A DNA stretch of 64,000 bases from assembly GCF_032399705.1 (NCBI RefSeq), contig NZ_CP135922.1, forward strand, positions 4,278,001 through 4,342,000, given 5' to 3'. Origin of the DNA: Paenibacillus sp. BIC5C1 (GTDB taxonomy: Bacteria > Bacillota > Bacilli > Paenibacillales > Paenibacillaceae). Shown in pieces: positions 11,771-62,957 of this stretch (position 1 is its first letter; each line of letters begins with the position of its first letter). The notes under the pieces are model-generated. The model was not told the origin of the DNA, did no database searches, and was given only the letters and a program-made list of their open reading frames with translations. The position numbers and the translations under genes were made by a program.

Positions 11771-11789
11771 TCATATGAAGCTGTAGCCT

Positions 11790-47920: not shown

Positions 47921-47937
47921 ATTCGTTCCCCTTTCTA

Positions 47938-48194: not shown

Positions 48195-48286
48195 TTCCTC
48201 CGATTATGGGTAAATAAATACGCCTCCTTACTTAGTAGTTTGTGAAGGCTTCAGTGAAGGCTTCGAGTGGTTGCAAGCCATGCGCC

Positions 48287-48496: not shown

Positions 48497-48520
48497 GTGG
48501 TTCTCACCTCCCTTCAGGGA

Positions 48521-48763: not shown

Positions 48764-48873
48764 TTCATGTTCAGCCCAAGCCAGTTGTTCAACCAGTTCC
48801 TGTAAGTAGGTGCTTGCAGGGTTACCTTTTTACCGAAAATGCCTTTTACGATGTTTGCGATTGATTTAAGCAT
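48760..48873 (-). CDS. 37-residue peptide after the sigma factor gene
   Basis: ATG at 48873 overlaps the last codons of the sigma gene in another frame and encodes MLKSIANIVKGIFGKK plus 21 residues. The first part is an amphipathic basic helix. The stop overlaps the next GTG start. Support is the chained overlaps only; the ribosome site is weak. Confidence 0.4.
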   Translation of the reverse strand: MLKSIANIVKGIFGKKVTLQAPTYRNWLNNWLGLNMK

Positions 48874-49825: not shown

Positions 49826-49827
49826 TA

Positions 49828-50109
49828 TTACTTCACCTCGAACTTTCTGTCTTCTGCTTTCAAAAAGTTCACTACCTCACCATCTGCAGTAACCACGACA
49901 CCATCCTCGTTGGCTGTAAGATTTTTTTTGAAATCGCTCCACTTCAATTTCGGTCCTTGAGGTGTTGCGAAGCCGTTTCTCTCCATAAATGCTTTGTACA
50001 CAGTGTCATCCATCGTCTTGATTTTCTTGTGGTTGCCTGTGGCTTGGGCATCTGTTACCTCAATATCCAATTCGTTATCGGCTATCTCGGGGGTATTAAC
50101 AACACTCAT
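49828..50109 (-). CDS. Small acidic phage-region protein, unknown
   Basis: A 93-residue protein with an acidic N-terminus (TPEIADNELDIEVTDAQAT) and a more structured C-terminus (KLKWSDFKKNLTANEDG). AAGGAG precedes the ATG. It is the first gene after the phage-type promoter at 50159-50190 and ends two bases before the sigma factor start. No family recognised; tight linkage to the sigma gene may mean a partner role. Confidence 0.6.
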   Translation of the reverse strand: MSVVNTPEIADNELDIEVTDAQATGNHKKIKTMDDTVYKAFMERNGFATPQGPKLKWSDFKKNLTANEDGVVVTADGEVVNFLKAEDRKFEVK

Positions 50110-50158
50110 TTAGCCCATCTCCTTCCGGTATTAAACCGTGTTATTTGCTTCATACTCT

Positions 50159-50190
50159 AGTAGTCGGGCTATGTATGGTAGGAGATGCGA
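50159..50190 (-). promoter_or_regulatory. Phage promoter, TCGCANCT-N16-CGACNACT class (copy 1)
   Basis: On the minus strand TCGCATCT (50183-50190), 16 bp, CGACTACT (50159-50166), then AGAG. It drives the 93-residue gene and the large sigma factor, and is preceded at once by a terminator. Confidence 0.8.
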
Positions 50191-50220
50191 ACAAAAAGAA
50201 AAGACCCCTTTCGGGGTCTT
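50191..50220 (-). terminator. Terminator preceding phage promoter copy 1
   Basis: On the minus strand AAGACCCC-GAAA-GGGGTCTT is followed by TTCTTTTTG, directly upstream of the promoter -35. Confidence 0.85.
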
Positions 50221-50223
50221 CAG

Positions 50224-50254
50224 GCTGTCGAGACTTTCTCGACAGCTATTTTTT
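50224..50254 (+). terminator. Hairpin with plus-strand T-run
   Basis: GCTGTCGAGA/TCTCGACAGC hairpin followed on the plus strand by TATTTTTTT. It would stop antisense transcription from the left; no plus-strand gene ends here. Confidence 0.65.
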
Positions 50255-50331
50255 TATACATTCAATTCAACACGACACTGCGTTAATATTGTATAATATT
50301 GGTAAATAAATGTGCGGAAGAGTGTACAAAT

Positions 50332-50478
50332 ATGTTGCGTTCTAATCGAAAAAAACAACGACTTGCACCGGAAGAATGTTTAATCCCATCAAGTAAGGCG
50401 TATACTGCTTGCATGCGCTGTGTACAAGATTTTGATGGGCGGTCACGAACTCGTTGTTCGTCATGTCTCTTACGTTAG
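50332..50478 (+). CDS. 48-residue zinc-ribbon-like protein on the opposite strand
   Basis: The only plus-strand frame in the phage-like region that looks real. It has a basic N-terminus (MLRSNRKKQRLAPEE) and two cysteine pairs, CMRC (27-30) and CSSC (42-45), as in a small zinc ribbon. A TATAAT lies at 50292-50297 with no good -35, and the ribosome site (GGAAGAG) is weak and distant. It converges on the minus-strand gene at 50485. Possibly a small DNA-binding or RNA-polymerase-binding regulator; that is inference. Confidence 0.5.
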   Translation: MLRSNRKKQRLAPEECLIPSSKAYTACMRCVQDFDGRSRTRCSSCLLR

Positions 50479-50484
50479 TTGTCA

Positions 50485-50727
50485 TTAGACAATGTTCCCT
50501 TCAGCTTCAAGAACTTCCAACAGGGTCTCGTAAGAAGGCAGGTTGATTACTGTCTCTTCAATCCAGTGTTGGAACATATCAAACTTATCTTCAGAGACCA
50601 ATTTCTCTTCAGTGATGGAACTCAGGAAAATACTCTTCCCGTTCGCTTGGAAGTGAATCTCCTTCATGTGCTTCTCAGGAACTTCTTTAAGTAGCAAACC
50701 TGCGGCTATTCTGTGGTCAATGTTCAT
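50485..50727 (-). CDS. Small phage-region protein, unknown
   Basis: An 80-residue protein (MNIDHRIAAGLLLKEVPEKH, acidic C-terminus). ATG at 50727 lies nine bases or so behind GGGAGA; the alternative GTG at 50736 touches the ribosome site. It is expressed from the phage promoter at 50752-50783. No family recognised. Confidence 0.6.
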   Translation of the reverse strand: MNIDHRIAAGLLLKEVPEKHMKEIHFQANGKSIFLSSITEEKLVSEDKFDMFQHWIEETVINLPSYETLLEVLEAEGNIV

Positions 50728-50751
50728 CTGTATCACTCTCCCTTTACTCTC

Positions 50752-50783
50752 AGTAGTAGAGTTATGTAGGGAGAAAGATGCGA
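50752..50783 (-). promoter_or_regulatory. Phage promoter, TCGCANCT-N16-CGACNACT class (copy 2)
   Basis: On the minus strand TCGCATCT (50776-50783), 16 bp, CTACTACT (50752-50759), one mismatch to the -10 consensus, then GAGAG. Confidence 0.75.
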
Positions 50784-50809
50784 AAGAAAAAGAGACCCGA
50801 AGGTCTCGA
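50784..50809 (-). terminator. Terminator preceding phage promoter copy 2
   Basis: On the minus strand GAGACC-TTCG-GGTCTC followed by TTTTTCTT; the T-run leads directly into the promoter -35 box. Confidence 0.8.
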
Positions 50810-50865
50810 ATTTCTTACAAGTTACCTCAATCATTGGAAGAGGATACTTTGGCGTAGTTGCGTAG

Positions 50866-51108
50866 CTAAATTAGGTCTAAACAGGCAAAACAGGAGTTAG
50901 CTTTTTTCCTGATAGCGTCGATATTTTCGTTCAATTTGATGTCCGAATTGTACAGGTCTCCGTAGCTTTCTTTCAGGGCATCCAGTTCCGCAGAGATAAG
51001 GCACTTGCCCTCCCCTTCAAGCACATTGGTATAATCCAGTCCCATATCAGAAACAGCCTTCCTGTTGTTCTGAAGAATTCCATAAACGTCCCTGAACTTA
51101 ATTTTCAT
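50866..51108 (-). CDS. Small phage-region protein, unknown
   Basis: An 80-residue, mainly helical protein (KFRDVYGILQNNRKAVSDMG, ending SCFACLDLI with a CxxC). Its ATG overlaps the stop of the upstream gene (ATGA), so the two are coupled. No family recognised. Confidence 0.6.
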   Translation of the reverse strand: MKIKFRDVYGILQNNRKAVSDMGLDYTNVLEGEGKCLISAELDALKESYGDLYNSDIKLNENIDAIRKKANSCFACLDLI

Positions 51109-51398
51109 CGTCTTGTCCTCCTAATCGTGCTGAGACGGTTTGTGTAGTCTGCTGAGAAGCAGTCCTGAAGACACTGCTTGTTACCCTCAATAGAAGCCTG
51201 AAGCGCAGGGGTGGAAGATACGTTAGCATCCATGATGCGTTCTAGCAATGATTCAAGCTGATTCTTGTTCCTGCGAATTACGTCTACCGTGGCGGGCGAC
51301 ACATGCCGCATGGCTTGCTCCATATTCCGGATAGCACTCTCAATCATCTCTACTTGCTCTACTACAACTCCAAGAGTGTAAACATAAGCCCTTTCCAT
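51105..51398 (-). CDS. Small helical phage-region protein, unknown
   Basis: A 97-residue all-helical protein (VEQVEMIESAIRNMEQAMRH, NKNQLESLLERIMDA), likely coiled coil. AGGAGG lies directly upstream of the ATG. No phage-class promoter is visible in front of it. No family recognised. Confidence 0.6.
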   Translation of the reverse strand: MERAYVYTLGVVVEQVEMIESAIRNMEQAMRHVSPATVDVIRRNKNQLESLLERIMDANVSSTPALQASIEGNKQCLQDCFSADYTNRLSTIRRTRR

Positions 51399-51562
51399 TT
51401 TATCCCTCCTGGTAAAATGCGTTTAAAGTGTCCTAGCATTTACGATTTACTCCACCGTTAATAGATGACTTCCATTTACCTTTTTGCCAAAACACGAAGT
51501 CATATATAGAGTCAGTTTTTAAAACACCATTCATGGCGTACCTGCATTTTTTTCTTATAGAT

Positions 51563-51745
51563 CTAGTCCTTCGAGCGACGAATCATCTTCTTTGCTTGCT
51601 TCTCAGCGGTACGACGGGTGGCTCGGTTATAAGCCATAAATGGGATAGACTTGTCCAACTCCCCTGCTTTAATCAAAGAAGCCACATCAGATATCAACAG
51701 TGGACTATTTCCCAGAATCATTGCGTTTTCGTTTTTGACCATCAT
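51563..51745 (-). CDS. Small basic phage-region protein with a YNRATRR motif
   Basis: A 60-residue protein starting MMVKNENAMILGN and ending in a basic helix with YNRATRRTAEKQAKKMIRR, a motif I recall from other phage genomes without a known function. GAAGGTAAAA precedes the ATG at 51745. The frame stays open to 51853, but that part overlaps a degenerate reading frame. Confidence 0.5.
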   Translation of the reverse strand: MMVKNENAMILGNSPLLISDVASLIKAGELDKSIPFMAYNRATRRTAEKQAKKMIRRSKD

Positions 51746-51782
51746 CAGTTTTACCTTCTTTCGTCTGAGGGTCTTTGTACCT

Positions 51783-51929
51783 TTACTTCTTGCCGTCCTT
51801 CTCACGATAGAACTTGCCACCTTCCATGCGGGGCTATCCTCACCACGGAGCACAATAGGTACGAGTTTAATGACGTACAGGTGGATCTACTTTTCTTACT
51901 TCTTGTTTCTTCTGTCCGTTCTCATTCAC
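51783..51929 (-). pseudogene. Degenerate small gene with two compensating frame changes
   Basis: From GTG at 51929 (GGAGAGG upstream) the frame reads VNENGQKKQEVRKVDPPVRH and stops. The next frame continues IKLVPIVLRGEDSP, and the first frame resumes as MEGGKFYREKDGKK to a stop at 51783. The 147-bp length is a multiple of three, so an insertion and a deletion seem to balance. Low support; it could also be noise. Confidence 0.35.
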
Positions 51930-51959
51930 TTACCTCTCCATTAAGAGGGGTAGTGTAAC

Positions 51960-52457
51960 CTAGATGGACGGAGCGAACTTAAAAATTTGGCAGATACAGT
52001 CGGGGTCATCGCATCCGTTAGCGTTAGTGTTCCGATCAGGAAGGATCTCTTGGTGCTCATAGTACCCTTGAGCTACGACCGTGATGATACGGTCTACATC
52101 GTGCATACGTATGATGGCTGAATCTCCTGCTCCGATGAAGTGGAACTTACCTGCTTCTAGTTCTGCCTGTGCAGCAGAAACCAGACCATCCTGAATCTCT
52201 CCGTCGGTAAGTTCTCCGGCATTTCCGAAGTATTCAAAACCCTGCGGGAACAAAGGGACTACGAAGGCTTCTTCTGACTTAAGCGTTTGTTCAGCTAAAG
52301 TGCTTTCTAATTCCTTGACACGTTTCGATAAGTCTTTATTTAACTTGACCGTCTCGTCATAGCGCGCGGCTTTTTGGATGATGGCAAGAAAGTCACCACC
52401 GTTCATGCTAGGCACTACAGGGAAACCGAAAGGCTTAAAGGAAATCTGTTTTGTCAT
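51960..52457 (-). CDS. Phage-region protein with coiled coil, unknown
   Basis: A 165-residue protein: an N-terminal FGFPVVPSMNGGDF segment, a coiled coil at about 38-60 (KLNKDLSKRVKELESTLAEQ), a soluble middle, and a C-terminus with three cysteines (GCDDPDCICQIF) that may bind metal. CGGAGGTAA precedes the ATG. It is driven by the phage promoter at 52494-52525. No family recognised. Confidence 0.65.
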   Translation of the reverse strand: MTKQISFKPFGFPVVPSMNGGDFLAIIQKAARYDETVKLNKDLSKRVKELESTLAEQTLKSEEAFVVPLFPQGFEYFGNAGELTDGEIQDGLVSAAQAELEAGKFHFIGAGDSAIIRMHDVDRIITVVAQGYYEHQEILPDRNTNANGCDDPDCICQIFKFAPSI

Positions 52458-52493
52458 TGTTGTTACCTCCGTTGTTTGTTTTACTGTCCCTAT

Positions 52494-52525
52494 AGTGGTC
52501 GCTCCATACCAGTTGGTAGTTGCGA
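52494..52525 (-). promoter_or_regulatory. Phage promoter, TCGCANCT-N16-CGACNACT class (copy 3)
   Basis: On the minus strand TCGCAACT (52518-52525), 16 bp, CGACCACT (52494-52501), then ATAGGGACAG. The start-site side resembles the T7 core ACTATAGGGA. Confidence 0.85.
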
Positions 52526-52558
52526 TTGATTCTGTAACTTCGTCGTGCTCCGTTACTA

Positions 52559-52888
52559 TTAAATAGTTGTGTTATTGATAGGCTCGGTTGCCTCCTCTTT
52601 CACTTCTTCCGCTTGTAATGTCCAGTATGCCACCTTTGTAAAGTGAACCCCTGATACCTCACCCAAGATGTTTTCTACGGCGAATACTTCACCTTCCTTT
52701 TGATACTTACGAAATATTTTCTTGTATTCTTCCTGCACATCTTTAGCCGCTTTGAGGATTATTTCCACAGGCTTATCTACGCCATCCTCGACAATCTTAC
52801 CTTTAAGCTTAGGGTCAATCTCGAACCATTCCACCCTCTTAACTTCACCGTTGTCAAGGAAAAAATTAGCTGTTATCTGAACCTTCAT
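52559..52888 (-). CDS. Phage-region protein, unknown
   Basis: A 109-residue protein starting MKVQITANFFLDNGEVKRVEWFEID, a beta-rich opening, followed by a helical middle (VEIILKAAKDVQEEYKKIF) and another beta part. The ATG at 52888 overlaps the end of the upstream zinc-ribbon gene by 23 bp. A longer frame upstream is an artefact of that overlap. No family recognised. Confidence 0.6.
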   Translation of the reverse strand: MKVQITANFFLDNGEVKRVEWFEIDPKLKGKIVEDGVDKPVEIILKAAKDVQEEYKKIFRKYQKEGEVFAVENILGEVSGVHFTKVAYWTLQAEEVKEEATEPINNTTI

Positions 52889-53231
52889 TCTTAAAGTCAC
52901 CCTCTTCGTCTGTATACTGGTAGTCTTTAAAGTCTTTAATGTGAATCTCAATGCTCTCCATCCATTCACCTTGCTCGTTAAACATCTGTTCGATCTCCAT
53001 GAGTTTCTGAAGGTTGTACTTGCTGATCGGAGGAACGATAGATTCCTCACCCTCGTCGTACCGAACCCACCACCTGCGGATAGTCTCGATAGTAAGTGTC
53101 TGATTGATGAAGTTTCCACAGTGATTGCACCATAGCACCAACGCCTTATCACATTCCATCTCTTCAGGTGTAAAAGAAGAACGTGCCCCACAGTGGGGGC
53201 ACTTGTTTAAGAATCCTATCATCCATGTCAC
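52866..53231 (-). CDS. Zinc-ribbon phage-region protein
   Basis: A 121-residue protein with CPHC (about 11-14) and CNHC (about 35-38), spaced as in a zinc ribbon, then an acidic C-terminus (KDYQYTDEEGDFKNEGS). The start may be ATG at 53231 or MIGFLNK at 53222. It lies nine bases downstream of the phage promoter at 53240-53271, so the transcript would be nearly leaderless if the upstream ATG is used; this favours 53222. No named family. Confidence 0.65.
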   Translation of the reverse strand: MTWMIGFLNKCPHCGARSSFTPEEMECDKALVLWCNHCGNFINQTLTIETIRRWWVRYDEGEESIVPPISKYNLQKLMEIEQMFNEQGEWMESIEIHIKDFKDYQYTDEEGDFKNEGSDNS

Positions 53232-53239
53232 CTCTCTAT

Positions 53240-53271
53240 AATGGTCGGCTTATGATTAGCGGGAGTCTCGA
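53240..53271 (-). promoter_or_regulatory. Phage promoter, weaker match (copy 4)
   Basis: On the minus strand TCGAGACT (53264-53271), 16 bp, CGACCATT (53240-53247), then ATAGAG. Two mismatches in the -35 box and one in the -10, but the spacing is identical. It overlaps the end of the upstream membrane-protein gene. Confidence 0.55.
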
Positions 53272-53621
53272 AGTCCTGTCTTCAGGTCTTCAAAACTGGT
53301 TTTAACCTTTTCCTTATTTGCATGCTCGTCTGCTACACTGTGGGAAGGCTTAATAAAGGAAGCCAGCAATGCAATACCTGCGAAGATTTGCGGCAAAGCA
53401 GAAGCTGCAATTGCTGTGTGGAAAATCGCACTCAGCGCACCAGCAACGAATGAACCTGCAATGAGTTTTAATCCGAACCCGATAACCCAACCTACCAAGA
53501 GAGCAAACAAAGGTTTAAGTAGAATAGTAATAATAATAATTGCTACCGCTCCTGCAACCCCGACTGCTCCCGCCGCACCAACACCCACACCTGCCAATAA
53601 CGCTCCGACTACTTTTTTCAT
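53256..53621 (-). CDS. Small Gly/Ala-rich membrane protein of the phage region
   Basis: A 121-residue protein with about three hydrophobic segments (residues 4-35, 36-60, 70-92), rich in Gly and Ala, and a charged C-terminal tail (HANKEKVKTSFEDLKTGLRD). It overlaps the upstream gene by four bases. Holin-like in size only; there is no endolysin nearby, so I do not assign lysis. Confidence 0.6.
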   Translation of the reverse strand: MKKVVGALLAGVGVGAAGAVGVAGAVAIIIITILLKPLFALLVGWVIGFGLKLIAGSFVAGALSAIFHTAIAASALPQIFAGIALLASFIKPSHSVADEHANKEKVKTSFEDLKTGLRDSR

Positions 53622-53836
53622 TGTCGAATCTCTCCCTTAAAGTATTTGAAATAGTCATACTTTTCACTTAATGGCTCATACTTGATTCCGTTGTCGGCGG
53701 GATACGACTCAGTGTGAAGTACTTTTAATTCCTGAATCTCTTTAGGTATTCCATTAGGGTAAGCCGCACAGGTCATGTTCTCCCGTTCGTCCCTATTAAA
53801 GTGCTTGCAGAATATACAAGGAATTGTAATATCCAT
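53618..53836 (-). CDS. Small cysteine-motif protein, conserved type
   Basis: A 72-residue protein: CIFCKHFNRDERENMTCAAYP at residues about 7-27 carries three cysteines, followed by NGIPKEIQELKVLHTE and a C-terminal NGIKYEP. I recognise this pattern from small conserved bacterial and phage proteins of unknown function. GAGGGG precedes the ATG at 53836. The frame upstream to 54019 lacks a ribosome site. Confidence 0.65.
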   Translation of the reverse strand: MDITIPCIFCKHFNRDERENMTCAAYPNGIPKEIQELKVLHTESYPADNGIKYEPLSEKYDYFKYFKGEIRQ

Positions 53837-54031
53837 TATAAAAATCCCCTCTCCATTTCTGCCAATTCCATCTCTTTCATATACGTAACTGATTGAGTTT
53901 CTTCTATATAAAGGAGCTTCACTCAGACAGGCGAGGCTACATAAGACGCTATTAGGAAATTTGCTCCGTCTTACAGAGAAATAGTGCTCGTTATTAAAGA
54001 GAGGGTTTATGAAACACATGTTGGCACATCG

Positions 54032-55150
54032 TTACCACCCCTCACATTTGAATCCACCGTACTGCTCGTACCACTCCCATATCTTCGCATCAATAGGTAC
54101 TCCGGTTATCTTGGCGGTGAATGTTTCAGGCATCAACTCAATAGGAAACCACTTGGTTGCATAGTTACAAAGGTGGTTCGCAATATACGTCGATTCCGCA
54201 TTGGTGAGGATTGTCTTCGCTCCATAGTTGTCAGGGTCAAGGGCAGAGTACGTATAGAACTGTTGTGCTCCAATGTTGTGATAATGAAGCCAGTGACCAA
54301 TCTCATGAATGACCGTCCTCAGTTTATTAGGAGAGGACTTCTGTCCAGTATCGTATTCCATTTGAGCAATGACATCAGCGTTGGCGTAGTCATACGTCTT
54401 ACTTACGACAACCTTTCCAGAGGAAGGGTCAAAGTATCCATTCGCACCATTACCGTTCTCAATCTTAATTGTTAGCTTATGCTTCTGAATCATATCAGCG
54501 AAGCCGCCGCAGGTATTCAGGAGTAACGCCAATGCTTCGGTCACATAGTTAGCGGCATCAATCTTCTTAGCGAAGTTTACTGACACTCCTAAGTTACTTG
54601 CCCACTTCTCAGCTTCAACAACGGAAGTAAACGGTTGCCACGTAACAGGAAGCTGTATGCCACTTTCCGGTGCGTCCGGTGGTTGTTGGTCTTCGGCTGG
54701 CTCTTCGGGCGGGTCAGGGTAATTACCTAAGTCAGTTGTTCCGGTGAGTAGAAGGTTAACGTCAGGCTCCGTAAGGAAGTGGAACATCAACTCAAGGTTC
54801 TTTCCGTCTCCGTGTGGTGTGTGGTACTCGAACAGGAACTCTTTACCTGCCACCACTGGATGCGCTACCTGAAAGTACAAGCCTTCCTCGTAGTTCTTGC
54901 AATGAATGTTCTTGGCGAGTACCTTTCCGTCCACAGTTAAATTCCAGTAGTCTTCGACGGTATTCATGTTCGTTCTGATGGATACCGCATAGAACTCAAG
55001 GTCATGGGACATTGTAAAGGTATCTTTGATCATCCTATCCCCGTTCGCCTTAGCAGGAACCATGATTGCCCTGCCCACAAAATGAGGGTGAGGTTTGGTA
55101 GGGTAGTAGGGTGGGTCTAGTCGCCCACCAACAGCATAACGATCGAACAT
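54032..55150 (-). CDS. Zincin-like metallopeptidase domain protein of the phage region
   Basis: A 372-residue protein. The first 145 residues look beta-rich, like a binding or structural module (FYAVSIRTNMNTVEDYWNL). A Pro/Asp/Glu-rich linker follows at about 146-165 (PDPPEEPAEDQQPPDAPE). The C-terminal part contains VIHEIGHWLHYHN near residue 302, an HExxHxxxH zinc motif. No signal peptide is visible. It could be a virion-associated protease or a secreted host-directed enzyme. GGGAGGTCA precedes the ATG, and the stop of the upstream gene overlaps it. Confidence 0.75.
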   Translation of the reverse strand: MFDRYAVGGRLDPPYYPTKPHPHFVGRAIMVPAKANGDRMIKDTFTMSHDLEFYAVSIRTNMNTVEDYWNLTVDGKVLAKNIHCKNYEEGLYFQVAHPVVAGKEFLFEYHTPHGDGKNLELMFHFLTEPDVNLLLTGTTDLGNYPDPPEEPAEDQQPPDAPESGIQLPVTWQPFTSVVEAEKWASNLGVSVNFAKKIDAANYVTEALALLLNTCGGFADMIQKHKLTIKIENGNGANGYFDPSSGKVVVSKTYDYANADVIAQMEYDTGQKSSPNKLRTVIHEIGHWLHYHNIGAQQFYTYSALDPDNYGAKTILTNAESTYIANHLCNYATKWFPIELMPETFTAKITGVPIDAKIWEWYEQYGGFKCEGW

Positions 55151-55677
55151 TACTGACCTCCCTCAGTCTTGGAATCCATTATCTCTGTAATCACCCTAAG
55201 ACGGAACCCACAGGTTGCTTTGAGGTCCTGGAACTCTTCCATAAATGTATCCTTGTGATGTTTTACAAGTGCCAAGCGCCTAAAAGCATCCTTGTTTTCA
55301 CGGTATCTGGCCTTCTTTCCAGCAAGATGCGTATCCCTGTGTTCGTGGTATTGCATAATCGCCCTTATTCTCCGGTCACAACAAGTGAATAGATGATTAC
55401 TGCTACATTTTTTTTGGAATGTCTCACCGCTTTTCTTGCAAACAAAGCCCTGTTTTGCTCTAGGTTTGTAAGGCGCAACGGAGGTCATACCCCCTAGTTC
55501 TTTAAAGTCAGTTGTCAAGTTAGACCAATTAATAGTTGAAATTTTGGGTATCACTTTAACTACTCCCATCTGTCGGAGAACTTTGTATAGCAAGTACGGA
55601 GGGTGAAGATACCTTCTCTTTCCTATGGCTGGCTTTGTTCTCATATCTTTACGAATTCCTATGTAATCTCTGAGCAT
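55150..55677 (-). CDS. Basic Cys/His-rich phage-region protein, unknown
   Basis: A 175-residue, strongly basic protein. The centre has CKKSGETFQKKC and LFTCCDRR with nearby histidines (MQYHEHRDTHLAGKKARY), which may form a zinc site and suggests nucleic-acid binding. TTGGAG precedes the ATG. It overlaps the start of the metallopeptidase-like gene. No family recognised. Confidence 0.6.
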   Translation of the reverse strand: MLRDYIGIRKDMRTKPAIGKRRYLHPPYLLYKVLRQMGVVKVIPKISTINWSNLTTDFKELGGMTSVAPYKPRAKQGFVCKKSGETFQKKCSSNHLFTCCDRRIRAIMQYHEHRDTHLAGKKARYRENKDAFRRLALVKHHKDTFMEEFQDLKATCGFRLRVITEIMDSKTEGGQ

Positions 55678-55731
55678 TCTCCAACCTTGACCAAGTTTCC
55701 GTAACGATAATACTTACTGAAGATGATTGAA

Positions 55732-55913
55732 CTAATCGTCTTCACTGACACCCTTCTTCAGAAGAACACCGCCAACAGAGACGTATCTTGAACCAGCGTA
55801 TTTTTCCTCAGCTACATCGTTCGAGTCATCCCAATGGGCATTCATCTTGTATGCTCAATCATGGTGTTACCGCCCATGGTAAGCAGAATCTCTTGCAATG
55901 GCTCATCACTCAT
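55732..55913 (-). pseudogene. Frameshifted small phage gene
   Basis: ATG at 55913 opens MSDEPLQEILLTMGGNTMIE and soon stops. One base off, the reading goes on as AYKMNAHWDDSNDVAEEKYAG and ends GVLLKKGVSEDD at 55732. A single-base deletion, or sequencing indel, near 55850 explains this. AGGAAA precedes the start. Family unknown. Confidence 0.6.
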
Positions 55914-55923
55914 GTGTTTCCTA

Positions 55924-56127
55924 CTAGTGTAAAATAGTTGGTTCGCCGTTCATCTGCTCAACTTGATTCATGATTTGCTTCATCTCTTGAGCGAAGGTGA
56001 TAATCATTGCTGCGGCTATATCAGAATCGACCTCCTCTTGCCGACCGCCATTCTTAGCGATGTTCTTTGCCGTGTGAGCAACCTTTCCCACAATGATTTC
56101 TGTGTATTGTTCTGTTGTCATCTTCAT
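55924..56127 (-). CDS. Small helical phage-region protein, unknown
   Basis: A 67-residue helical protein (MKMTTEQYTEIIVGKVAHTA, then SDIAAAMIITFAQEMKQIMNQ). AGAGGCGA precedes the ATG. It lies 23 bp downstream of the phage promoter at 56150-56181. No family recognised. Confidence 0.6.
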   Translation of the reverse strand: MKMTTEQYTEIIVGKVAHTAKNIAKNGGRQEEVDSDIAAAMIITFAQEMKQIMNQVEQMNGEPTILH

Positions 56128-56149
56128 AGCTTGTCGCCTCTTTCTCTAT

Positions 56150-56181
56150 AGTGGTCGCTACATAGTCTCGGATAGTTGCAA
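56150..56181 (-). promoter_or_regulatory. Phage promoter, TCGCANCT-N16-CGACNACT class (copy 5)
   Basis: On the minus strand TTGCAACT (56174-56181), 16 bp, CGACCACT (56150-56157), then ATAGAG. Confidence 0.8.
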
Positions 56182-56196
56182 AATCAAATCCGATTT

Positions 56197-56580
56197 TCAT
56201 ACGCTGAATGTCCCCGCTTTACGTCCAACCTGAAGCTTGTTAGATTGCAGGATGTAAAGGAGTTGAGCAGTTGTCACAGAACCACCGAACTTACTTTCAA
56301 TCTCACGAGTCAGAACATCTTGAGCACGTTCTGGTCTCGGCAGGATTGCGGCAGGTTCTTCGACCAAAGTGTAGCTGTGAATACCGTCACCCAAGTTGTC
56401 AACACGAATCTTGTAGCCTTGCTTGTACAGTTCTTGGAGACGTGCCGCCCAACGCTGGCTGATTTCGTACAGTTCGTAGTTAGCCAATCCTTTAGAAGCT
56501 GCGTTACGCAGCGCGTTCAGCACCATCGCTCGTTGAGAAGTACGCTTCTGCGTATTAGGGTTGAACTTTGCTGTTGTCAT
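56197..56580 (-). CDS. Winged-helix-like phage protein
   Basis: A 127-residue protein. The first half reads like a helix-turn-helix/winged helix (SQRAMVLNALRNAASKGLAN, YELYEISQRWAARLQELYKQ, GYKIRVDNLGDGIHSYTLV). The second half is a helical segment with DVLTREIESKFGGSVTTAQLL. It probably binds DNA. I use ATG at 56580 because the phage promoter at 56626-56657 would start the RNA near 56619, which excludes the longer frame. Confidence 0.65.
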   Translation of the reverse strand: MTTAKFNPNTQKRTSQRAMVLNALRNAASKGLANYELYEISQRWAARLQELYKQGYKIRVDNLGDGIHSYTLVEEPAAILPRPERAQDVLTREIESKFGGSVTTAQLLYILQSNKLQVGRKAGTFSV

Positions 56581-56625
56581 GTGTCCCTGGCTCCGTTTCG
56601 ATTGTTTGTTTTGCATTACACTCAC

Positions 56626-56657
56626 AGTAGTCAAGCCATCGACGTAAAAAGGTGCGA
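56626..56657 (-). promoter_or_regulatory. Phage promoter, TCGCANCT-N16-CGACNACT class (copy 6)
   Basis: On the minus strand TCGCACCT (56650-56657), 16 bp, TGACTACT (56626-56633), then GTGAG. A terminator ends six bases upstream. Confidence 0.8.
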
Positions 56658-56663
56658 TAAAAT

Positions 56664-56688
56664 AAAAAGACCCCCGAAAGGATCTTTT
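56664..56688 (-). terminator. Terminator preceding phage promoter copy 6
   Basis: On the minus strand AAAAGATCC-TTTC-GGGGGTCTTTTT followed by ATTTT. It overlaps the stop codon of the 144-residue gene. Confidence 0.7.
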
Positions 56689-57121
56689 ACTTCTTGGCTT
56701 GAACTCTTGAGGTTAAGTTAACCATCGCCAGCGTAGGTACAGAAGCCGAAACGGGCGGCTGGACTTGGTATGCTTTGTCTCCTATAAAGGCAGTAGCGCC
56801 ATTACCGGACACCGCTATTGTTACGTTTGCCTCCTTATCTACTGCTTCAATGACAAGCACCGTTCTTGGGTTATCGTCGTGGATACCGCCCACCTTGGCG
56901 TAAACAGGGCATCCTGCCGCTGTTAATCTACTTGCGATATGCTGAACCAGTTCGGAGGTTACATGCGTATGGCTGGTCTTATACTCCCCTACGTTTAATG
57001 TGATGGGGTAATCCGTTCCGTTGACAGTAACGACGATGTTGTCATTAGCTCCAGTTTTAATCTCTGTGTCTTGTGCAAGAGAAACGTTTCCCCACACCCT
57101 AATCCCTGAAGCTGTTGCCAT
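56687..57121 (-). CDS. Beta-rich phage-region protein, unknown
   Basis: A 144-residue protein starting MATASGIRVWGNVSLAQDTE. It is Val/Thr/Ala/Gly-rich with regular beta-like stretches (NIVVTVNGTDYPITLNVGEY, NVTIAVSGNGATAFI), so a structural or decoration-type role is possible but not shown. AAAGGAGTGA precedes the ATG at 57121; the frame open to 57163 has no support. It follows the DNA polymerase gene by 79 bp. Confidence 0.6.
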   Translation of the reverse strand: MATASGIRVWGNVSLAQDTEIKTGANDNIVVTVNGTDYPITLNVGEYKTSHTHVTSELVQHIASRLTAAGCPVYAKVGGIHDDNPRTVLVIEAVDKEANVTIAVSGNGATAFIGDKAYQVQPPVSASVPTLAMVNLTSRVQAKK

Positions 57122-57200
57122 GTTATCACTCCTTTCAGACTTGCTATCTTCAATATAAGGCACTTACCTTAGTTAGTAACAAATAACAAAGAAGCCGTTA

Positions 57201-59786
57201 TTATGCAGCCTCCTCTTCTTCCTCTTCGTCATCCTTCTCAGCAAACATACCGACTTCATACTCGATACCGAACTTGGAAAGTTTCTTCTTAACCTCTTCC
57301 TCGAAGATATCTCTCCAATCCAAAGCACCTTCGTTCATAAGACGGATTTGCTCTTGCGAGAAGTTGCCGCCCCAATAAGGAGATACCTCAATATCCGATT
57401 TGAATTGGACTCCTGCATCGTTAGGGATAACATTAGCCATTGTATCTGTAATCGCCTTTAGTACGGCTAGGTCAACGGTCTCAGGGGCGTCGAAAATCAA
57501 CTCGTCGTGTACCTGAAGGACAAGGTGGATATCATCCTTCTCAAGTTGAGACACATAGCCGTTAATTACCCACTCACGACGGTTTAAGCACGTAGTTCCG
57601 TCTGGTCGTTTAGGGTAGAACAGTTCCACCATCGCCTTCTTGGATTGATCAGCGCTTGAGCCCTGGATTTTGGCATTACAACTCTGCCGCTTGCACTTTT
57701 CAATTTTCCAGTGCCAACCAGAACGCTTCCACAGATCCTCCTGTTTAGCTTCAGCAATGGTCTCACCGAATCTGCGTTTGCGTCCAAGAACAGTCTCAAT
57801 GTAGCCCTTCTCCATAACCTCTTTGTGGGTTGTTCCTTCCCACCTAAGGTAGTTAGGCATGGAGGACTTAAAGCCGTCAATCAGTTCCTTTGCTTCCTCT
57901 TTACTGGATTCAATTTGGTCACTTAAGCCCAAGTCCGTAATACCGTAAATTACACCGAATACTACGGACTTGGTTTTCTTACGAAGTAACTCAAAAAATG
58001 TGGAAAGACGTTCAATGGTCGGACGGGTAATCTCCGTAGTAGAAGAGTTAGTGCCCTGTTCTTTACTGTTCATATAAGTTATTGCATAGATAAGTTCATG
58101 AGAACCTGCATATTTCGTAATCGCTTCATCTACGTTAACGCTGGTCTCTTTTTCTGAATCCCCCTTGTAACCCCGAATCGTCTCGAACATATCATAGTCG
58201 AAGCTGTGAATCTGGCATGTTACCCGACTGTGCATATCAAGCCCTAGCTTGAAGATATCAATGAGGGTTTGTTCCTGAGTAAAGATAGCCAACCAGCGCA
58301 ATTCCTGTTGCGAGAAGTCTCCGCTGACCAGTAGTCTCCCACTAGGGGCACGGAAGGCATAGCGAATCAGGTCAAATTTAGATGGAATTTGCTGAAGGTT
58401 TGGTGCTGAACAGGAAACACGTCCAGTCCTTACCAGTTGGTTGTAGGAACAGTGGATGATTCCTTCTACCGTATCGTCAGGAAGCTTATTACAGAAGGCA
58501 TCAATGAGTTTCGACAGCCCACGGTATTCCAGAATATAGTCGATAATTTTGTGAGTCTTATCACCAAGGGTCACGGTTACCTTCTTATTTCTTGTAAGTA
58601 CCTTCTTACTTGTAGACAGCTTAGGTACTTTACGCTTTAGGTCTTTGTCGTAAACCATTTCTGCCTCAAGAATCTTATGCTCTACATATAGTTTGCTGGC
58701 TAATTGTGCGGGAGAGCCTAGGTTAAACTCTTCCACCACTTCGTACTCTTCCTTAAACTTAATCCCTTGTCGCTGTCGGGTTCGTGACTTAATAAGAGTA
58801 ATCGTTCCACCTAAGACGGCGAAAATATCTGCCTTAAGTTCGTCCAATTTCTCTTGTAGAACTTTACCAATAATATCTTTCAGAAACTTGGAGTCAAGCT
58901 CTACTCCCCGTCGCTCTGCTGTAGCAAAAACAGCCAGCAATGGCATCTCAACTTCTCGGAAAAGACGGTAAACGCCGTCAAGTCCAAAAGATGGAGTTTC
59001 CACAATGCTTTTTTGATATCTGAACACCCAATGAGTCATGAATACGTCATGGCAAGCATAGTAGTTAGCAAGCCTGTGAGGTATACTATCAAATGGAATC
59101 TTGTCGAACATGCTACCGAACCTAAAAGTTGGGCGGCTAAGTTCATCATGGCTCAATTTACCTTGCTCGATTAGCCAAGGAAGAGCGTAAGAGTTGTACC
59201 ATTCTTTCAGACCTTTTGGTTTATTTTCGTTTAATAAACTGCCCATAATCATCGTGTCCCAATGAATATTAAACGTAATGTCAATATCTGCCCAATTCTT
59301 GAGTGCGTGAATGTCAAACTTTGCGTTTGCCATGACAATCATATCATCTTCTTCTAACAAGGGTTTAAGGGCGGTTGATACTGCATCAAAAGACAAACAT
59401 TCAACATTTATCGACATTTCATGTAAAAAAGGGCGCATGGGTATATTAAAATACTCTTCTGATTCAAAACCTATGGAAATTGAGATTAGAGTGTCCCTCC
59501 AGCTGTTTAGTCCATAAGTCTCAGTGTCGAGATAGATATAGGCATCGCCTTGATACATCGTTTTATATGCTTTGTAGTAGTTGACTAATCGCTGAAGTAA
59601 CTCAGGAGTATTGATGAGCGTGTAATTGTCAGGCATGACGATCGATGCTTCTACGTCTAAGATTTTCTGTTCTTTCTTAGTGAGTTTCTTCGCCTTTTTA
59701 ACTATTTCTGTATTCTTAGTGCGTGTGGTTCGGGCAGACTTCTTTTCGCTTTTAGTTAAAATGTTGATGACTTCGTTATCTGACAT
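57201..59786 (-). CDS. Family A DNA polymerase with 3'-5' exonuclease domain
   Basis: An 861-residue replicative-type polymerase. A basic N-terminal tail precedes the DnaQ-like proofreading domain (exo I LDTET, residues 86-90; later MANAKFDIHALK). The polymerase palm/fingers show motif A SGDFSQQELRW, motif B RKKTKSVVFGVIYG and motif C LQVHDELIF (VHDE from 759). The extreme C-terminus is an acidic run of Glu. The 5'-3' exonuclease domain of bacterial Pol I is absent, as in T7-type and other phage polymerases. AGGGAGG precedes the ATG. Confidence 0.95.
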   Translation of the reverse strand: MSDNEVINILTKSEKKSARTTRTKNTEIVKKAKKLTKKEQKILDVEASIVMPDNYTLINTPELLQRLVNYYKAYKTMYQGDAYIYLDTETYGLNSWRDTLISISIGFESEEYFNIPMRPFLHEMSINVECLSFDAVSTALKPLLEEDDMIVMANAKFDIHALKNWADIDITFNIHWDTMIMGSLLNENKPKGLKEWYNSYALPWLIEQGKLSHDELSRPTFRFGSMFDKIPFDSIPHRLANYYACHDVFMTHWVFRYQKSIVETPSFGLDGVYRLFREVEMPLLAVFATAERRGVELDSKFLKDIIGKVLQEKLDELKADIFAVLGGTITLIKSRTRQRQGIKFKEEYEVVEEFNLGSPAQLASKLYVEHKILEAEMVYDKDLKRKVPKLSTSKKVLTRNKKVTVTLGDKTHKIIDYILEYRGLSKLIDAFCNKLPDDTVEGIIHCSYNQLVRTGRVSCSAPNLQQIPSKFDLIRYAFRAPSGRLLVSGDFSQQELRWLAIFTQEQTLIDIFKLGLDMHSRVTCQIHSFDYDMFETIRGYKGDSEKETSVNVDEAITKYAGSHELIYAITYMNSKEQGTNSSTTEITRPTIERLSTFFELLRKKTKSVVFGVIYGITDLGLSDQIESSKEEAKELIDGFKSSMPNYLRWEGTTHKEVMEKGYIETVLGRKRRFGETIAEAKQEDLWKRSGWHWKIEKCKRQSCNAKIQGSSADQSKKAMVELFYPKRPDGTTCLNRREWVINGYVSQLEKDDIHLVLQVHDELIFDAPETVDLAVLKAITDTMANVIPNDAGVQFKSDIEVSPYWGGNFSQEQIRLMNEGALDWRDIFEEEVKKKLSKFGIEYEVGMFAEKDDEEEEEEAA

Positions 59787-59854
59787 ACTGGCCCTCCCTA
59801 TCGATATGAAAATAACGTTGTAATGAATATTATTGACTGTCGTGTTTAAATAGG

Positions 59855-59885
59855 GTATTTAATAAAAAGGCCATCTCAGCCCCTC
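59855..59885 (-). terminator. Weak terminator-like hairpin after the polymerase-upstream gene
   Basis: On the minus strand a short GGC/GCC hairpin is followed by TTTTTATT, just after the stop of the ssDNA-binding gene. Confidence 0.35.
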
Positions 59886-59897
59886 ACTCATTACAGA

Positions 59898-60554
59898 TTA
59901 GAATGGAAGTTTGCGTTGTGTTGCAGGTACTCCTTGTTGCTCATTGGCTGGCTGAACACCTTGTGGTGCATGATTATAAACGTTAGATTGAGTCTGGGCA
60001 CCTGCTATTAACGCTTGCATGAAATCTGCAATCTCGTCTGGGCTATGTGGTGTAACTTGCGGTGTAATATCAGGCATCTGGTCGATTAATTCTTGCGTCG
60101 GGAAGTCCAGAACAGGTTTTCCAGCTTCAGGGTTTGTCACATAGCGGCGGGCACTGTAGGCAGTGTCGGAAGCACCTCTACCAGTGCGGTAAAGGGTTAC
60201 GAAGTTCTTAGTAGGGTCGCACTCGTCGAGATTAAATTCTTGGTTCAACTTTTGAACATGAGACTTAGCCAAAGAGACGAATTTGACTCTCTTCTCTACA
60301 GGGTCATACACACGGAACTTAATCCGCAATGCAGGATATTTAAAAGGGTTTGCTTTGCAAAGTGGGCAAATGTCTTTGCCGGGGCAACGAATGTATTTAG
60401 GTGTCAGACCGGATTCATAGTGCTCACGGATACCGAACAGGTCTTCAAACCAGTCGATGAAGAGCATAGTCATTGGCTTTCCTTCTTCAAAAGTAATGAA
60501 TTCTGCACCGCCAGAGAGAATTGCTCCAAGACCATGAATGACTGTGTTAGACAT
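59898..60554 (-). CDS. Putative phage single-stranded DNA-binding protein
   Basis: A 218-residue protein. A central zinc-type cluster CPGKDICPLC (about 53-62) is followed by beta-rich FRVYDPVEKRVKFVSL, and the C-terminal third is disordered (Gln/Pro-rich). Phage T4 gp32-like and related SSBs share this layout. Location between a sigma factor/primase block and the DNA polymerase fits a replication role. The usual acidic SSB tip is absent; the protein ends RKLPF. GGAGGAAA precedes the ATG and a phage promoter lies 55 bp upstream. Confidence 0.65.
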   Translation of the reverse strand: MSNTVIHGLGAILSGGAEFITFEEGKPMTMLFIDWFEDLFGIREHYESGLTPKYIRCPGKDICPLCKANPFKYPALRIKFRVYDPVEKRVKFVSLAKSHVQKLNQEFNLDECDPTKNFVTLYRTGRGASDTAYSARRYVTNPEAGKPVLDFPTQELIDQMPDITPQVTPHSPDEIADFMQALIAGAQTQSNVYNHAPQGVQPANEQQGVPATQRKLPF

Positions 60555-60608
60555 AATGTGTTTCCTCCAATGTAATTTGTACTTGAGGTTCGCTGACCTC
60601 TTACTATT

Positions 60609-60640
60609 AGTCGTCGTTCCATCTTTTCAAAAAGGAGCGA
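60609..60640 (-). promoter_or_regulatory. Phage promoter, TCGCANCT-N16-CGACNACT class (copy 7)
   Basis: On the minus strand TCGCTCCT (60633-60640), 16 bp, CGACGACT (60609-60616), then AATAG. Drives the ssDNA-binding protein and possibly the polymerase. Confidence 0.8.
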
Positions 60641-61042
60641 ATGACTTTTCAAGAATTGGATACGATATATTTCAAATAGATTTAATCTATCTTCTTTTAA
60701 TATTTCTTCCTTAAATGTCAGTAGTGTATTTGTACCTTTGGAAATCTGCGTTATTCGCTTCAACTACTAAAAGATTGGCTAAATAATATGATCTGTAAAA
60801 TAGATTAGTAACATAACCTATTTTAATTGCACTGTTTTGCAACATAGTGTATTGACACTACTCTAAGTGCAGTTGTAAAATGTTTCTATGAGAAATTTGA
60901 AACATATATAGGAACAGTTAAAGGTTTTTTAGGCAAGGTATGTTATACTTTAAAAGAGAGAAATATTGAAGCTAAGAAACTCCTAAGACACTCTTACTAA
61001 TATCTATCTATGTATATTTTCTAAGGTAGGTAAATTAGGCTG
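60641..61042. other. 400-bp AT-rich gap between the ssDNA-binding and small sigma genes
   Basis: No reading frame with protein-like composition and ribosome site on either strand. It holds one good plus-strand sigma-A-type promoter (60852-60881) and a possible extended -10 (TG-T-TATACT near 60940), both pointing right. An origin, an antisense RNA or a host-read regulatory region are all possible. Confidence 0.5.
60852..60881 (+). promoter_or_regulatory. Host-type promoter pointing against the phage genes
   Basis: TTGACA (60852-60857), 18 bp, TAAAAT (60876-60881). Its transcript would run antisense into the small sigma factor gene. Confidence 0.5.
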
Positions 61043-61573
61043 TTACCCCTGGCATAACTTTTTCAACGTTTTCATCGCACGGGAAGCATGGGACTTGTTC
61101 AAGCCAAGTAAGTTAGAAATCTCTGTTGGCTTCATATCTATCCCTTCCTCTGTGAAGAGCATGAAATCAATGATTCGACGTTGTTGCGGTGTAAACATAC
61201 AGAGGTTGTTCAAGTAATCCGTTTTTACGTCAGACAGTCCATAGCCTATCTCTTCAGTTGCGTACGAGAAGTAATCGATAGTTGAACCATGTTCTTCATC
61301 TGCCCCATCGCAAAAATTAACAGAGGTGCTGTTTTTGCTAATCATACGGTTGTTTTTGCGGTAGTAGTCAAATACTGCACGTTGAACGACAGTGTGAGAG
61401 AATGTGAAGATATCTTTCTTAACTTGTCCTTTGTCGATGGCTGTAAGAATACGAAGCACGGCTTCTGACTGAACTTCTTCACGGTCTTCGCTTCTCACGC
61501 CTTTCAGTATAAATTTGAAGATAGGTGTTAAGGACTTGATATCGAAGTTCGATATCGTTGTTTGAGTTGTCAT
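61043..61573 (-). CDS. Small phage-encoded sigma factor (ECF-like layout)
   Basis: A 176-residue protein with a region 2-like helix set (REEVQSEAVLRILTAIDKGQ, FSHTVVQRAVFDYYRKNNR) and a region 4-like helix-turn-helix (MKPTEISNLLGLNKSHASRAM, about 150-170), joined by an acidic linker. Length and two-domain layout resemble ECF and phage sigma factors. TTGGAGGAA precedes the ATG. It lies behind its own copy of the phage promoter, so it could activate itself. Confidence 0.75.
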   Translation of the reverse strand: MTTQTTISNFDIKSLTPIFKFILKGVRSEDREEVQSEAVLRILTAIDKGQVKKDIFTFSHTVVQRAVFDYYRKNNRMISKNSTSVNFCDGADEEHGSTIDYFSYATEEIGYGLSDVKTDYLNNLCMFTPQQRRIIDFMLFTEEGIDMKPTEISNLLGLNKSHASRAMKTLKKLCQG

Positions 61574-61623
61574 GGTTAATATTCCTCCAATGGTTTCATG
61601 TGTAATGTGTTGCCAGTAATATC

Positions 61624-61655
61624 AGAGGTCGTTGCTTCGTCTGAGTAAGATGCGA
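61624..61655 (-). promoter_or_regulatory. Phage promoter, TCGCANCT-N16-CGACNACT class (copy 8)
   Basis: On the minus strand TCGCATCT (61648-61655), 16 bp, CGACCTCT (61624-61631), then GATA. Drives the small sigma factor gene. Confidence 0.75.
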
Positions 61656-61677
61656 CTAAATTTGAATAGAATTTTGC

Positions 61678-62766
61678 TTACTGGAACATTGACCCGATTA
61701 GGTTCACGTTGTAGGTGTCGAGACGGTCTAGTAAACAAGCATTAAGCAGTTCATTGCTGTCTTTGAGCGCAGGAAAGCTAGGGTAGCGTACACGGTTCAC
61801 AACGAACCCTGCCCTATCCAGTAAGATTGCGGCGTCTTGCATTCCCTTCTCACCCGCTTTATCGTTGTCTAGCATCAAATCAATTTCCTCGATGCCAGCC
61901 AACTGCAACTCCCGAATTTGATTCCTGAAAAGAATACGTCCGTTAATCGAGATTGCGGGTATATCCACCTGATAGTTGGACATACAGTCAATAGGTGATT
62001 CGACCATCCTGACTCGCCTAATTCGGTGTTTCGTGGTTCTAAGTGTGTTAATGAAATGGAGACCAAAAATAATATCTTTCTTTATCGCGCTGCCCTCATT
62101 AATGAACTTAGTACCGTGATAGCTGTTGCCTATCTTTCTCTTCTGCACAAAACGGAGTTCTCCGGATCTCGTCCTCTGAGGGAATACAACTGTCGCAGTT
62201 TCAGTGTCAACACAGATTTCGTAGGTTTCGAGGGTTCTGTCGTTAAATCCCCTAGAACGCATGTAATTTATGCCAGTCTGATAGAGTAGTTCATTACTAG
62301 CCCTCGAATCTTTCATGCTAGTAAGAACGCTCTCTTCGAGGTGGGGAATAACGTACTTGTTCCTACGATTATCTATGAAATCAACCATATCGAACGTTCT
62401 TCGTTTTTCTTCCTCGATGATATAGGTAGAAAGCAAAACTTTAATGCCCTCTCCTTCATTCAGGTCAAGAGCGTTCTCTATTAATATGTCTATTGTTCCT
62501 AAGTAGCCACAATAAAAGCAGTTACAGTGATAGGGCGGTTCTTTAGAGATGCCAAAAGATGCCCTTGTTTCGGAATGTAATGGACAGCAACTCATGACCC
62601 ATTCCCCCGTATCATTCAGTCCTGTGAATGCTTTAGGGTTACTTAGAACCTTCGAGAGATGCTGATAAGAGAACCTGAGTTCATCTGTCAACTCTTCAGG
62701 ATCAATGTACAAGGATTCAAGAATCTCAATATTGGGATCCTCTTGTTTGAGAGAGAGATTAATCAC
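61678..62766 (-). CDS. DnaG-like phage primase
   Basis: A 362-residue primase: N-terminal zinc finger (CCPLHSETRASFGI, CNCFYCGYLG, residues about 60-90), a middle RNA-polymerase-core region, and a Toprim domain with VRMVESPIDCMSN (Glu, about 252) and LMLDNDKAGEKGM (DxD, about 296). There is no fused helicase; the separate DnaB-like gene is two genes upstream. The start is GTG at 62766, overlapping the end of the small upstream gene. Confidence 0.88.
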   Translation of the reverse strand: MINLSLKQEDPNIEILESLYIDPEELTDELRFSYQHLSKVLSNPKAFTGLNDTGEWVMSCCPLHSETRASFGISKEPPYHCNCFYCGYLGTIDILIENALDLNEGEGIKVLLSTYIIEEEKRRTFDMVDFIDNRRNKYVIPHLEESVLTSMKDSRASNELLYQTGINYMRSRGFNDRTLETYEICVDTETATVVFPQRTRSGELRFVQKRKIGNSYHGTKFINEGSAIKKDIIFGLHFINTLRTTKHRIRRVRMVESPIDCMSNYQVDIPAISINGRILFRNQIRELQLAGIEEIDLMLDNDKAGEKGMQDAAILLDRAGFVVNRVRYPSFPALKDSNELLNACLLDRLDTYNVNLIGSMFQ

Positions 62767-62938
62767 TTCCCTTTCCCCCTATCTGGGCGAAACCGGGAGA
62801 GCGGATTTCTATCTCGTCCTCATGAACATCGACGTGAACGTTGAAAAAGTTAGGGAAGTATTGGCAGTGAGCCGTTAACTCCTTACTCTCCCTATACGCT
62901 TCTAAGCTGATAGAGTTAAGGTACAGTTGTACCCACAT
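62759..62938 (-). CDS. Small protein between helicase and primase genes
   Basis: A 59-residue protein (MWVQLYLNSISLEAYRESKE, then NVHVDVHEDEIEIRSPGF) with a beta-rich C-terminal half. Its stop overlaps the primase start by eight bases, and it begins 20 bp after the helicase stop. GAGGGA precedes the ATG. No family recognised, but position suggests a replication accessory. Confidence 0.6.
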   Translation of the reverse strand: MWVQLYLNSISLEAYRESKELTAHCQYFPNFFNVHVDVHEDEIEIRSPGFAQIGGKGSD

Positions 62939-62957
62939 GGGCTAGTCCCTCCCTCTC

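Follow-up and report, generated by a model that had tools for sequence, protein, structure and literature searches.

Three-part, fixed-spacing probable promoters in a Jenst-like Paenibacillus prophage and a phage ECF-like sigma factor as their probable reader

The middle and late promoters of phage SPO1 use gp28 and gp33/gp34, and a repeat much closer to the one described here has been reported from Brevibacillus phages. In the parts of their paper that deal with this repeat, Berg et al. 2016 (PMC4909266) describe a MEME motif that stands before genes of the replication, nucleotide and transcription classes, 19 times in Jenst and 20 times in SecTim467, and was not found in the host; they draw the comparison with SPO1 and list, without choosing among them, three candidate phage sigma factors, including the extracytoplasmic function (ECF)-like YP_009199201.1 (a sigma-24 protein). 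Herein we analyzed a 64,000-nt stretch of Paenibacillus sp. BIC5C1 (NZ_CP135922.1, positions 4,278,001-4,342,000; hereafter the window), in which a preliminary description had recognized eight minus-strand copies of a two-box element and proposed them as an undescribed promoter family. The sites and the published Jenst/SecTim467 motif very probably belong to one family, a match made by number, place and phage and not by the published logo; the family was thus not undescribed, as the 2016 report already gives the related repeat and suggests phage sigma factors. Our preferred reading, which we hold at a probability of roughly 0.72 from sequence comparison, is that a Jenst-like phage uses the sites as middle promoters, read by its ECF-like sigma factor together with host RNA polymerase.

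All eight copies were recovered by re-reading the window sequence, and each lies upstream of a gene on the same strand:

50159-50190, minus: site 1, exact; start codon 49 nt downstream, coding sequence 49828-50109 (remnant of a Gam-like gene preceding the 319-aa sigma gene)
50752-50783, minus: site 2, one mismatch; ATG 24 nt downstream, coding sequence 50485-50727; follows a terminator-like hairpin
52494-52525, minus: site 3, exact; ATG 36 nt downstream, coding sequence 51960-52457
53240-53271, minus: site 4, three mismatches; in-frame ATG 17 nt downstream, coding sequence 52866-53222
56150-56181, minus: site 5, one mismatch; ATG 22 nt downstream, coding sequence 55924-56127
56626-56657, minus: site 6, one mismatch; ATG 45 nt downstream, coding sequence 56197-56580; follows a terminator-like hairpin
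60609-60640, minus: site 7, one mismatch; 54 nt before coding sequence 59898-60554, the gene preceding the DNA polymerase
61624-61655, minus: site 8, one mismatch; 50 nt before the ECF-like sigma gene

Mismatches are counted against TCGCANCT-N16-CGACNACT (two sites exact, five with one mismatch and one, at 53240, with three). Distances run from the second box to start codons picked by their Shine-Dalgarno match; for site 4 the in-frame ATG at +17 was taken, not the ATG at +13. The measured range of 17-54 nt is close to the 9-55 bp first given, and narrower. The gene behind site 4 shares its opening (MIGFLNK) with one in another locus that is preceded by a higher-scoring site (L103:7429; L numbers denote loci in our comparison set).

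The sites are not a product of chance, a possibility rejected by a scan of the whole genome (7,078,281 bp) and by spacer scans with shuffled sequence. With up to three mismatches the window holds 12 matches, the eight sites and four others (shuffles: mean 3.83, largest 11). With no or one mismatch the entire genome holds nine, every one inside a single prophage: seven within the window and two beyond its end (genome 4342274 and 4344649, equivalent to window 64274 and 66649). A genome scan for equal matches outside phage-like DNA, proposed at the outset as the check on the family, therefore returned none at this stringency. At up to two mismatches there are 50 matches in the genome versus 67 for a reversed control pattern, and the 41 with exactly two look like background level. 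The 16-bp spacer is the strongest evidence that the sites are real. When YCGCANCT-Nx-CGACYAYW was run across the 68 kb of the prophage, up to one mismatch gave nine matches at a spacer of 16 (shuffles 0.0) and none or one at every other spacer from 12 to 20; up to two mismatches gave 15 at spacer 16 and six at spacer 19 (shuffle mean 0.7, largest 2), five of these six using the first box of a spacer-16 match, that is, the same sites read three bases further.

The sites also contain a third conserved piece, a feature absent from the earlier description of them: ATR, 4-6 nt before CGAC, which reads ATA or ATG in seven of the eight sites and AAG in that at 61624. These eight provide the fairer check: the 46 pooled sites were chosen mostly by matrix score, so that selection accounts for part of the conservation at the positions scored, those of ATR among them. 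The full element is tripartite and non-palindromic, with all pieces on the same strand at fixed spacing: TCGCANCT - N10 - ATR - N3 - CGACYACT. The far end of the prophage has a weaker extra site (genome 4392819-4392850), which is on the plus strand and at the place of the outward-facing Jenst site 8718. The sites are very probably promoters, phage-specific in this genome, and the original proposal of a fixed-spacing family unlike sigma-A promoters and confined to phage DNA is well supported for BIC5C1. Searches against Rfam gave no family at the sites; the one window match was a thiamine pyrophosphate (TPP) riboswitch (11666-11775, minus strand), outside the prophage.

The prophage itself (genome 4325466-4392775) has open reading frames that match Brevibacillus phage Jenst by tblastn. 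The matches form a late block and a middle block, both collinear with Jenst, and the two are inverted with respect to each other. The Jenst stretch of ~10.2-18.5 kb (terminase, portal, major head) has no match in it, which makes the prophage a remnant; homology and gene order place it with Jenstvirus-like phages. Within the window, the genes under or near the sites comprise the replication genes listed below, those for two sigma-like proteins, the remnant of the Gam-like gene and others of unknown function. Jenst site 70450 precedes the full-length version of the Gam-like gene behind site 1, and site-to-gene distances are nearly the same in Jenst and here: 48 and 50 nt for the ECF gene, 54 and 54 for the pre-polymerase gene, and 23 and 23 for a 360-aa gene. 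A transposase-like gene (45490-46560) lies beside the left end of the prophage. The relevant features are:

47466-64000, minus: in-window part of the Jenst-like prophage remnant (tblastn of open reading frames against Jenst)
48866-49825, minus: SigB/F/G-like sigma factor of 319 aa, the rival candidate as reader and the proposed sigma of late genes; TIGR02980 60.4 bits (cut-off 234.35), Jenst 70%
57201-59786, minus: family A DNA polymerase; Pfam DNA_pol_A 4.9e-70, Jenst 79%
61043-61573, minus: ECF-like sigma factor, 176 aa, proposed reader; TIGR02937 39.1 bits over residues 19-174 (cut-off 42.9), PHROG 1740 'RNA polymerase sigma factor' 2.3e-15
61678-62766, minus: DNA primase; PHROG 47 4.2e-40, Jenst 73%
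62958-63902, minus: in-window part of a DnaB-like helicase; PHROG 19 3.9e-31; longer open reading frame 62958-64256 (genome 4340958-4342256), Jenst 82% over the longer frame

Related sites recur in relatives of this prophage, in some of them with the second box altered. A matrix trained on Jenst found 20 matches in Jenst, 14 of them training sites, and the mean over ten shuffles, which preserve single-base content only, was 0.0 at every threshold of 10 or more and 0.1 at 8; one match (77556) lies inside an annotated gene. Three pairs of Jenst sites (78507/94014, 72400/105561 and 4948/92747) are alike over almost all of the spacer, as might result from promoter duplication within the genome. 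Close Paenibacillus relatives have the window form of the motif. The Paenibacillus peoriae plasmid pPlas1 (NZ_CP061173.1; 137 kb; L105, L106) looks like a phage-plasmid of the Jenst group: it carries Jenst-like replication genes, ParM and both sigma genes, the ECF-like one 43% identical to that of the prophage. Over the 100,000 of its 137,220 bases that were scanned, TCCCAACT-N16-CGATAGTT gave 10, 15 and 20 matches at up to one, two and three mismatches (shuffles 0, 0.1 and 0.65); other spacers from 12 to 20 gave none at up to two mismatches and none or one at up to three, except four at spacer 20, three of which use the first box of a spacer-16 match. Bacillus phage EZ-2018a encodes an ECF-like protein with 24% identity to the prophage one, and in this phage TTGCAACT-N16-CACTACT gave 3, 4 and 16 matches at the same three stringencies (shuffle means 0.05, 0.4 and 3.9). 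The window-trained matrix found nothing above background in EZ-2018a, whose sites use a shifted dialect, and ATR is not evident in them. Stripped remnants in several Paenibacillus genomes (L043-L046, L099-L101) retain an ECF-like gene with one site ~210 nt upstream; that in L045 also has a virion-protein fragment and a sigma of the 319-aa type, which occurs in L043 and L099-L101 as well.

The favoured -10 box is CGACYACT in the prophage, CGACCATA in Jenst, CGATAGTT in pPlas1 and CACTACTT in EZ-2018a. Each element was searched with all four patterns, the pPlas1 pattern allowing C or T at the eighth base; matches are given for the window, Jenst, pPlas1 and EZ patterns in that order:

Prophage: 6, 0, 0, 0 at up to one mismatch; 10, 2, 0, 0 at up to two
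Jenst: 1, 13, 0, 0 at up to one mismatch; 8, 19, 1, 0 at up to two
pPlas1: 0, 0, 13, 0 at up to one mismatch; 1, 0, 16, 0 at up to two
EZ-2018a: 0, 0, 0, 3 at up to one mismatch; 0, 0, 0, 3 at up to two

Cross-matches between the window and Jenst patterns are expected because the two have most bases in common. Jenst-like phages and phage-plasmids may thus hold a family of ECF-like sigma factors with mutually private dialects, in which the -35 core and the 16-bp spacer are kept, ATR persists in three of the four elements and the -10 box is rewritten in step with the sigma, an interpretation that we consider evenly balanced between right and wrong.

The preliminary description knew of no sigma factor with this consensus, a statement that can now be narrowed, as the best candidate is encoded under one of the sites. 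The 176-aa protein has a 65% identical homologue in Jenst, annotated as sigma-24, and a fold search returned mostly ECF structures at the head of the list; a relative in L045 passes the Pfam Sigma70_r2 cut-off (30.4). The sites sit just before replication and regulatory genes, the ECF-like sigma gene included, and in seven of 13 assessable ECF lineages, this one among them (61624-61655), a site directly precedes the lineage's own ECF gene. According to the preferred reading, the small sigma, presumed to consist of domains 2 and 4 only, would bind host RNA polymerase; its domain 4 would recognize TCGCANCT as the -35, its domain 2 would recognize the CGAC core as the -10, and transcription would start in the purine-rich stretch 3-6 nt past the second box. 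Expression of the sigma from the site ahead of its gene would create a positive feedback loop and a switch from early to middle genes, and the 319-aa sigma, as a product of the middle regulon, would then open the late genes.

Several observations weigh against this pairing or against the confinement of the motif to such phages. The ECF-like sigma falls just below curated cut-offs (TIGR02937 39.1 versus 42.9 bits, Pfam Sigma70_r2 21.4 versus 24), and at E 0.001 Pfam does not list sigma region 4 for this protein. The other six ECF lineages (L030, L031, L047, L064, EZ-2018a and pPlas1) have no site directly before the ECF gene, and in L047 (ECF 34%) no convincing site was seen at all. Across 21 targets the ECF gene was found in 19 and the 319-aa sigma in 15; the targets lacking the latter are all stretches of at most 40 kb, so co-occurrence cannot separate the two sigmas. 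The 14-kb L058 carries four sites and the 319-aa sigma, with no ECF within those 14 kb. The EZ-2018a dialect consists of few sites, and spacer 13 there gave 1, 3 and 10 matches at up to one, two and three mismatches; the shuffle mean at up to two was 0.35, and two of those three share the first box with a spacer-16 match. The motif was also reported in the unrelated Bacillus phage Basilisk (PMC4909266, in its treatment of the motif). Finally, 75 congeneric genomes, 13 of which have the ECF at E 1e-15 or better and 12 the exact GCAMCT-N10-ATR-N3-CGACYACT, contain 18 exact matches to that pattern, 10 in ECF prophages and eight elsewhere, with four for a control pattern.

Each of the eight off-phage matches comes from a different genome, and five of these genomes lack a close ECF homologue. 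The matches can be split by the genes they have in common. Six (L086, L087, L088, L089, L091 and L093) are near-perfect motifs upstream of small genes (286 aa at most) that belong to one family, the members tested having no Pfam or PHROG match; a conserved stretch (ggctagcc...) precedes the start codon, and at least four loci adjoin RHS- or VgrG-type genes. The other two (L090:8143-8174 and L092:6481-6512) stand before serine recombinase (integrase-type) genes in phage-like loci. No phage-type ECF homologue was found in the eight loci (11-16 kb) or in bases 1-86000 of the 107,741-base contig of L090, using a narrow profile (11 homologues plus EZ) that also misses the SigM-like ECF of L086; Rfam gave no family in these loci either. 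The off-phage copies may be relics, may serve a second user of a like promoter, or may partly be chance.

It is possible, though we think it unlikely, that the 319-aa SigB/F/G-like sigma reads the promoters and the ECF-like protein has another role. The 319-aa protein is a clear sigma factor by profile and by matches in the PDB (chain 1l0o_C, 'sigma factor', 6.8e-9; SigA chains from 9.4e-8), its operon has an upstream site, and both its presence in 15 of the 21 targets and the four sites of L058 fit such a role. Against this, its best profile and PDB matches are of SigB/F/G and SigA types, readers of TATAAT- or other A+T-rich -10 boxes, and it diverges less than the ECF between phages of different dialect. 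A TATAAT-like motif, TGTTARG-N16-TTATAWTG, moreover stands ahead of part of the late genes, at corresponding places in the prophage (genome 4388607, 4362940, 4377179 and 4382445, past the window end) and in Jenst (13517, 15448, 22161 and 46731), and we tentatively assign it to the 319-aa sigma. The case for this late motif is modest, being favoured by its class of up to one mismatch and by the matching positions only: at up to three mismatches it gave 24 matches versus 17.7 in shuffles for Jenst, 11 versus 7.3 for the prophage and 22 versus 22.6 for EZ, up to two mismatches gave a single match in pPlas1, and in Jenst TGTTAGG-Nx-TTATAATG at up to three mismatches is about as frequent at spacer 17 (11 matches) as at spacer 16 (10). 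Our confidence in the ECF pairing is slightly lowered because of L058 and this weak late motif. The third Jenst sigma, gp111, was rejected as a general reader, as it is intact only in Jenst and L058 among the 21 targets, many of which are partial stretches possibly short of its place; a short remnant of it lies at window 50342-50485.

Less probable still is an operator role, in which a phage activator or repressor would bind the element and no sigma would read it directly as a promoter. Some phages do have repeats to which repressors bind. In its discussion of the motif the 2016 report left this choice open (PMC4909266); yet the element is non-palindromic, keeps one orientation with its gene, and has two boxes at -35/-10 distance with a single fixed spacer. 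Three of the eight sites begin 7-9 nt after a terminator-like hairpin (50221-50200, 50807-50792 and 56688-56665), a position that argues for a promoter, and the operator reading gains nothing from sigma-A-like pairs, which are not enriched but fewer in the region than in shuffles (19 versus a mean of 28.1, standard deviation 6.2); one same-strand pair overlaps a site.

Reading of the sites by a host ECF sigma of SigX/SigM type seems very improbable. Host ECF promoters also combine an AAC-type -35 with a CGAC or CGTC -10, and in the off-phage locus L086 the site is closely followed by two genes, one for a SigM-like host ECF (TIGR02950 108 bits, cut-off 148) and one of anti-sigma type. None of the nine best genome matches lies outside the prophage, however, and a host ECF regulon was rejected, there being no host match at 0-1 mismatch; in addition, the dialect differs among the phages of three host genera and also between two Paenibacillus elements, the prophage and pPlas1. 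A T7-type promoter for a single-subunit RNA polymerase, made of the second box and a downstream ATAGGG and suggested by the readings CGACCACTATAGGGA and CGACCACTATAGAGA at 52494 and 56150, which resemble the T7 promoter core, can be practically dismissed, since the upstream box has no place in such a promoter and Pfam RNA_pol (PF00940) has no match in the host genome or Jenst (T7 positive control 9.9e-110), with one weak match in EZ-2018a (17.2 bits, below cut-off) within its DNA polymerase gene.

Should the pairing with the ECF-like sigma be true, the middle-gene switch of a phage group would be explained from sequence, and related sigma-promoter pairs with separate -10 boxes would bear on how ECF domain 2 changes its DNA specificity. 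The private dialects, if true, would mean that nature supplies a set of orthogonal sigma-promoter pairs in which the spacer carries a third recognition element. The motif can also serve as a signature for finding Jenst-like prophages and plasmid prophages.

Compared with known systems, the proposed arrangement resembles SPO1 gp28 and gp33/gp34, in which phage sigmas redirect the RNA polymerase of a Gram-positive host through an early-middle-late cascade; it differs in the boxes, which are others in the SPO1 middle and late promoters, in the ECF-like nature of the proposed middle sigma and in a promoter with three conserved pieces. ECF (group 4) sigmas such as E. coli sigma-E and B. subtilis SigX/SigW share the small size and supply most of the nearest folds, and we take the CGAC core and 16-bp spacer to be ECF-like promoter features, similar to those of B. 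subtilis SigX promoters; the present protein, in contrast, is phage-borne and scores just under the ECF cut-offs, and its putative promoter has TCGCANCT with a variable sixth base in place of a fixed AAC, plus the extra ATR. Sporulation-like sigmas are likewise sigma factors in phages of spore-formers, but the theme there is their sporulation-like nature and effect on host sporulation (PMC9429907), and the main text of that paper makes no mention of Jenst, Brevibacillus or Paenibacillus. The Jenst/SecTim467 motif is nearest: there as here, two conserved parts at promoter-like distance precede replication and transcription genes and are absent from the host. An open-licence literature search found no title or abstract assigning that motif to the ECF-like gene. 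What sets the present sites apart is the -10 dialect CGACYACT, the measured ATR and exact spacer; beyond the published motif, the present analysis adds the preference for the ECF-like sigma, the ATR element, the set of dialects and the family members from Paenibacillus, the plasmid and EZ-2018a.

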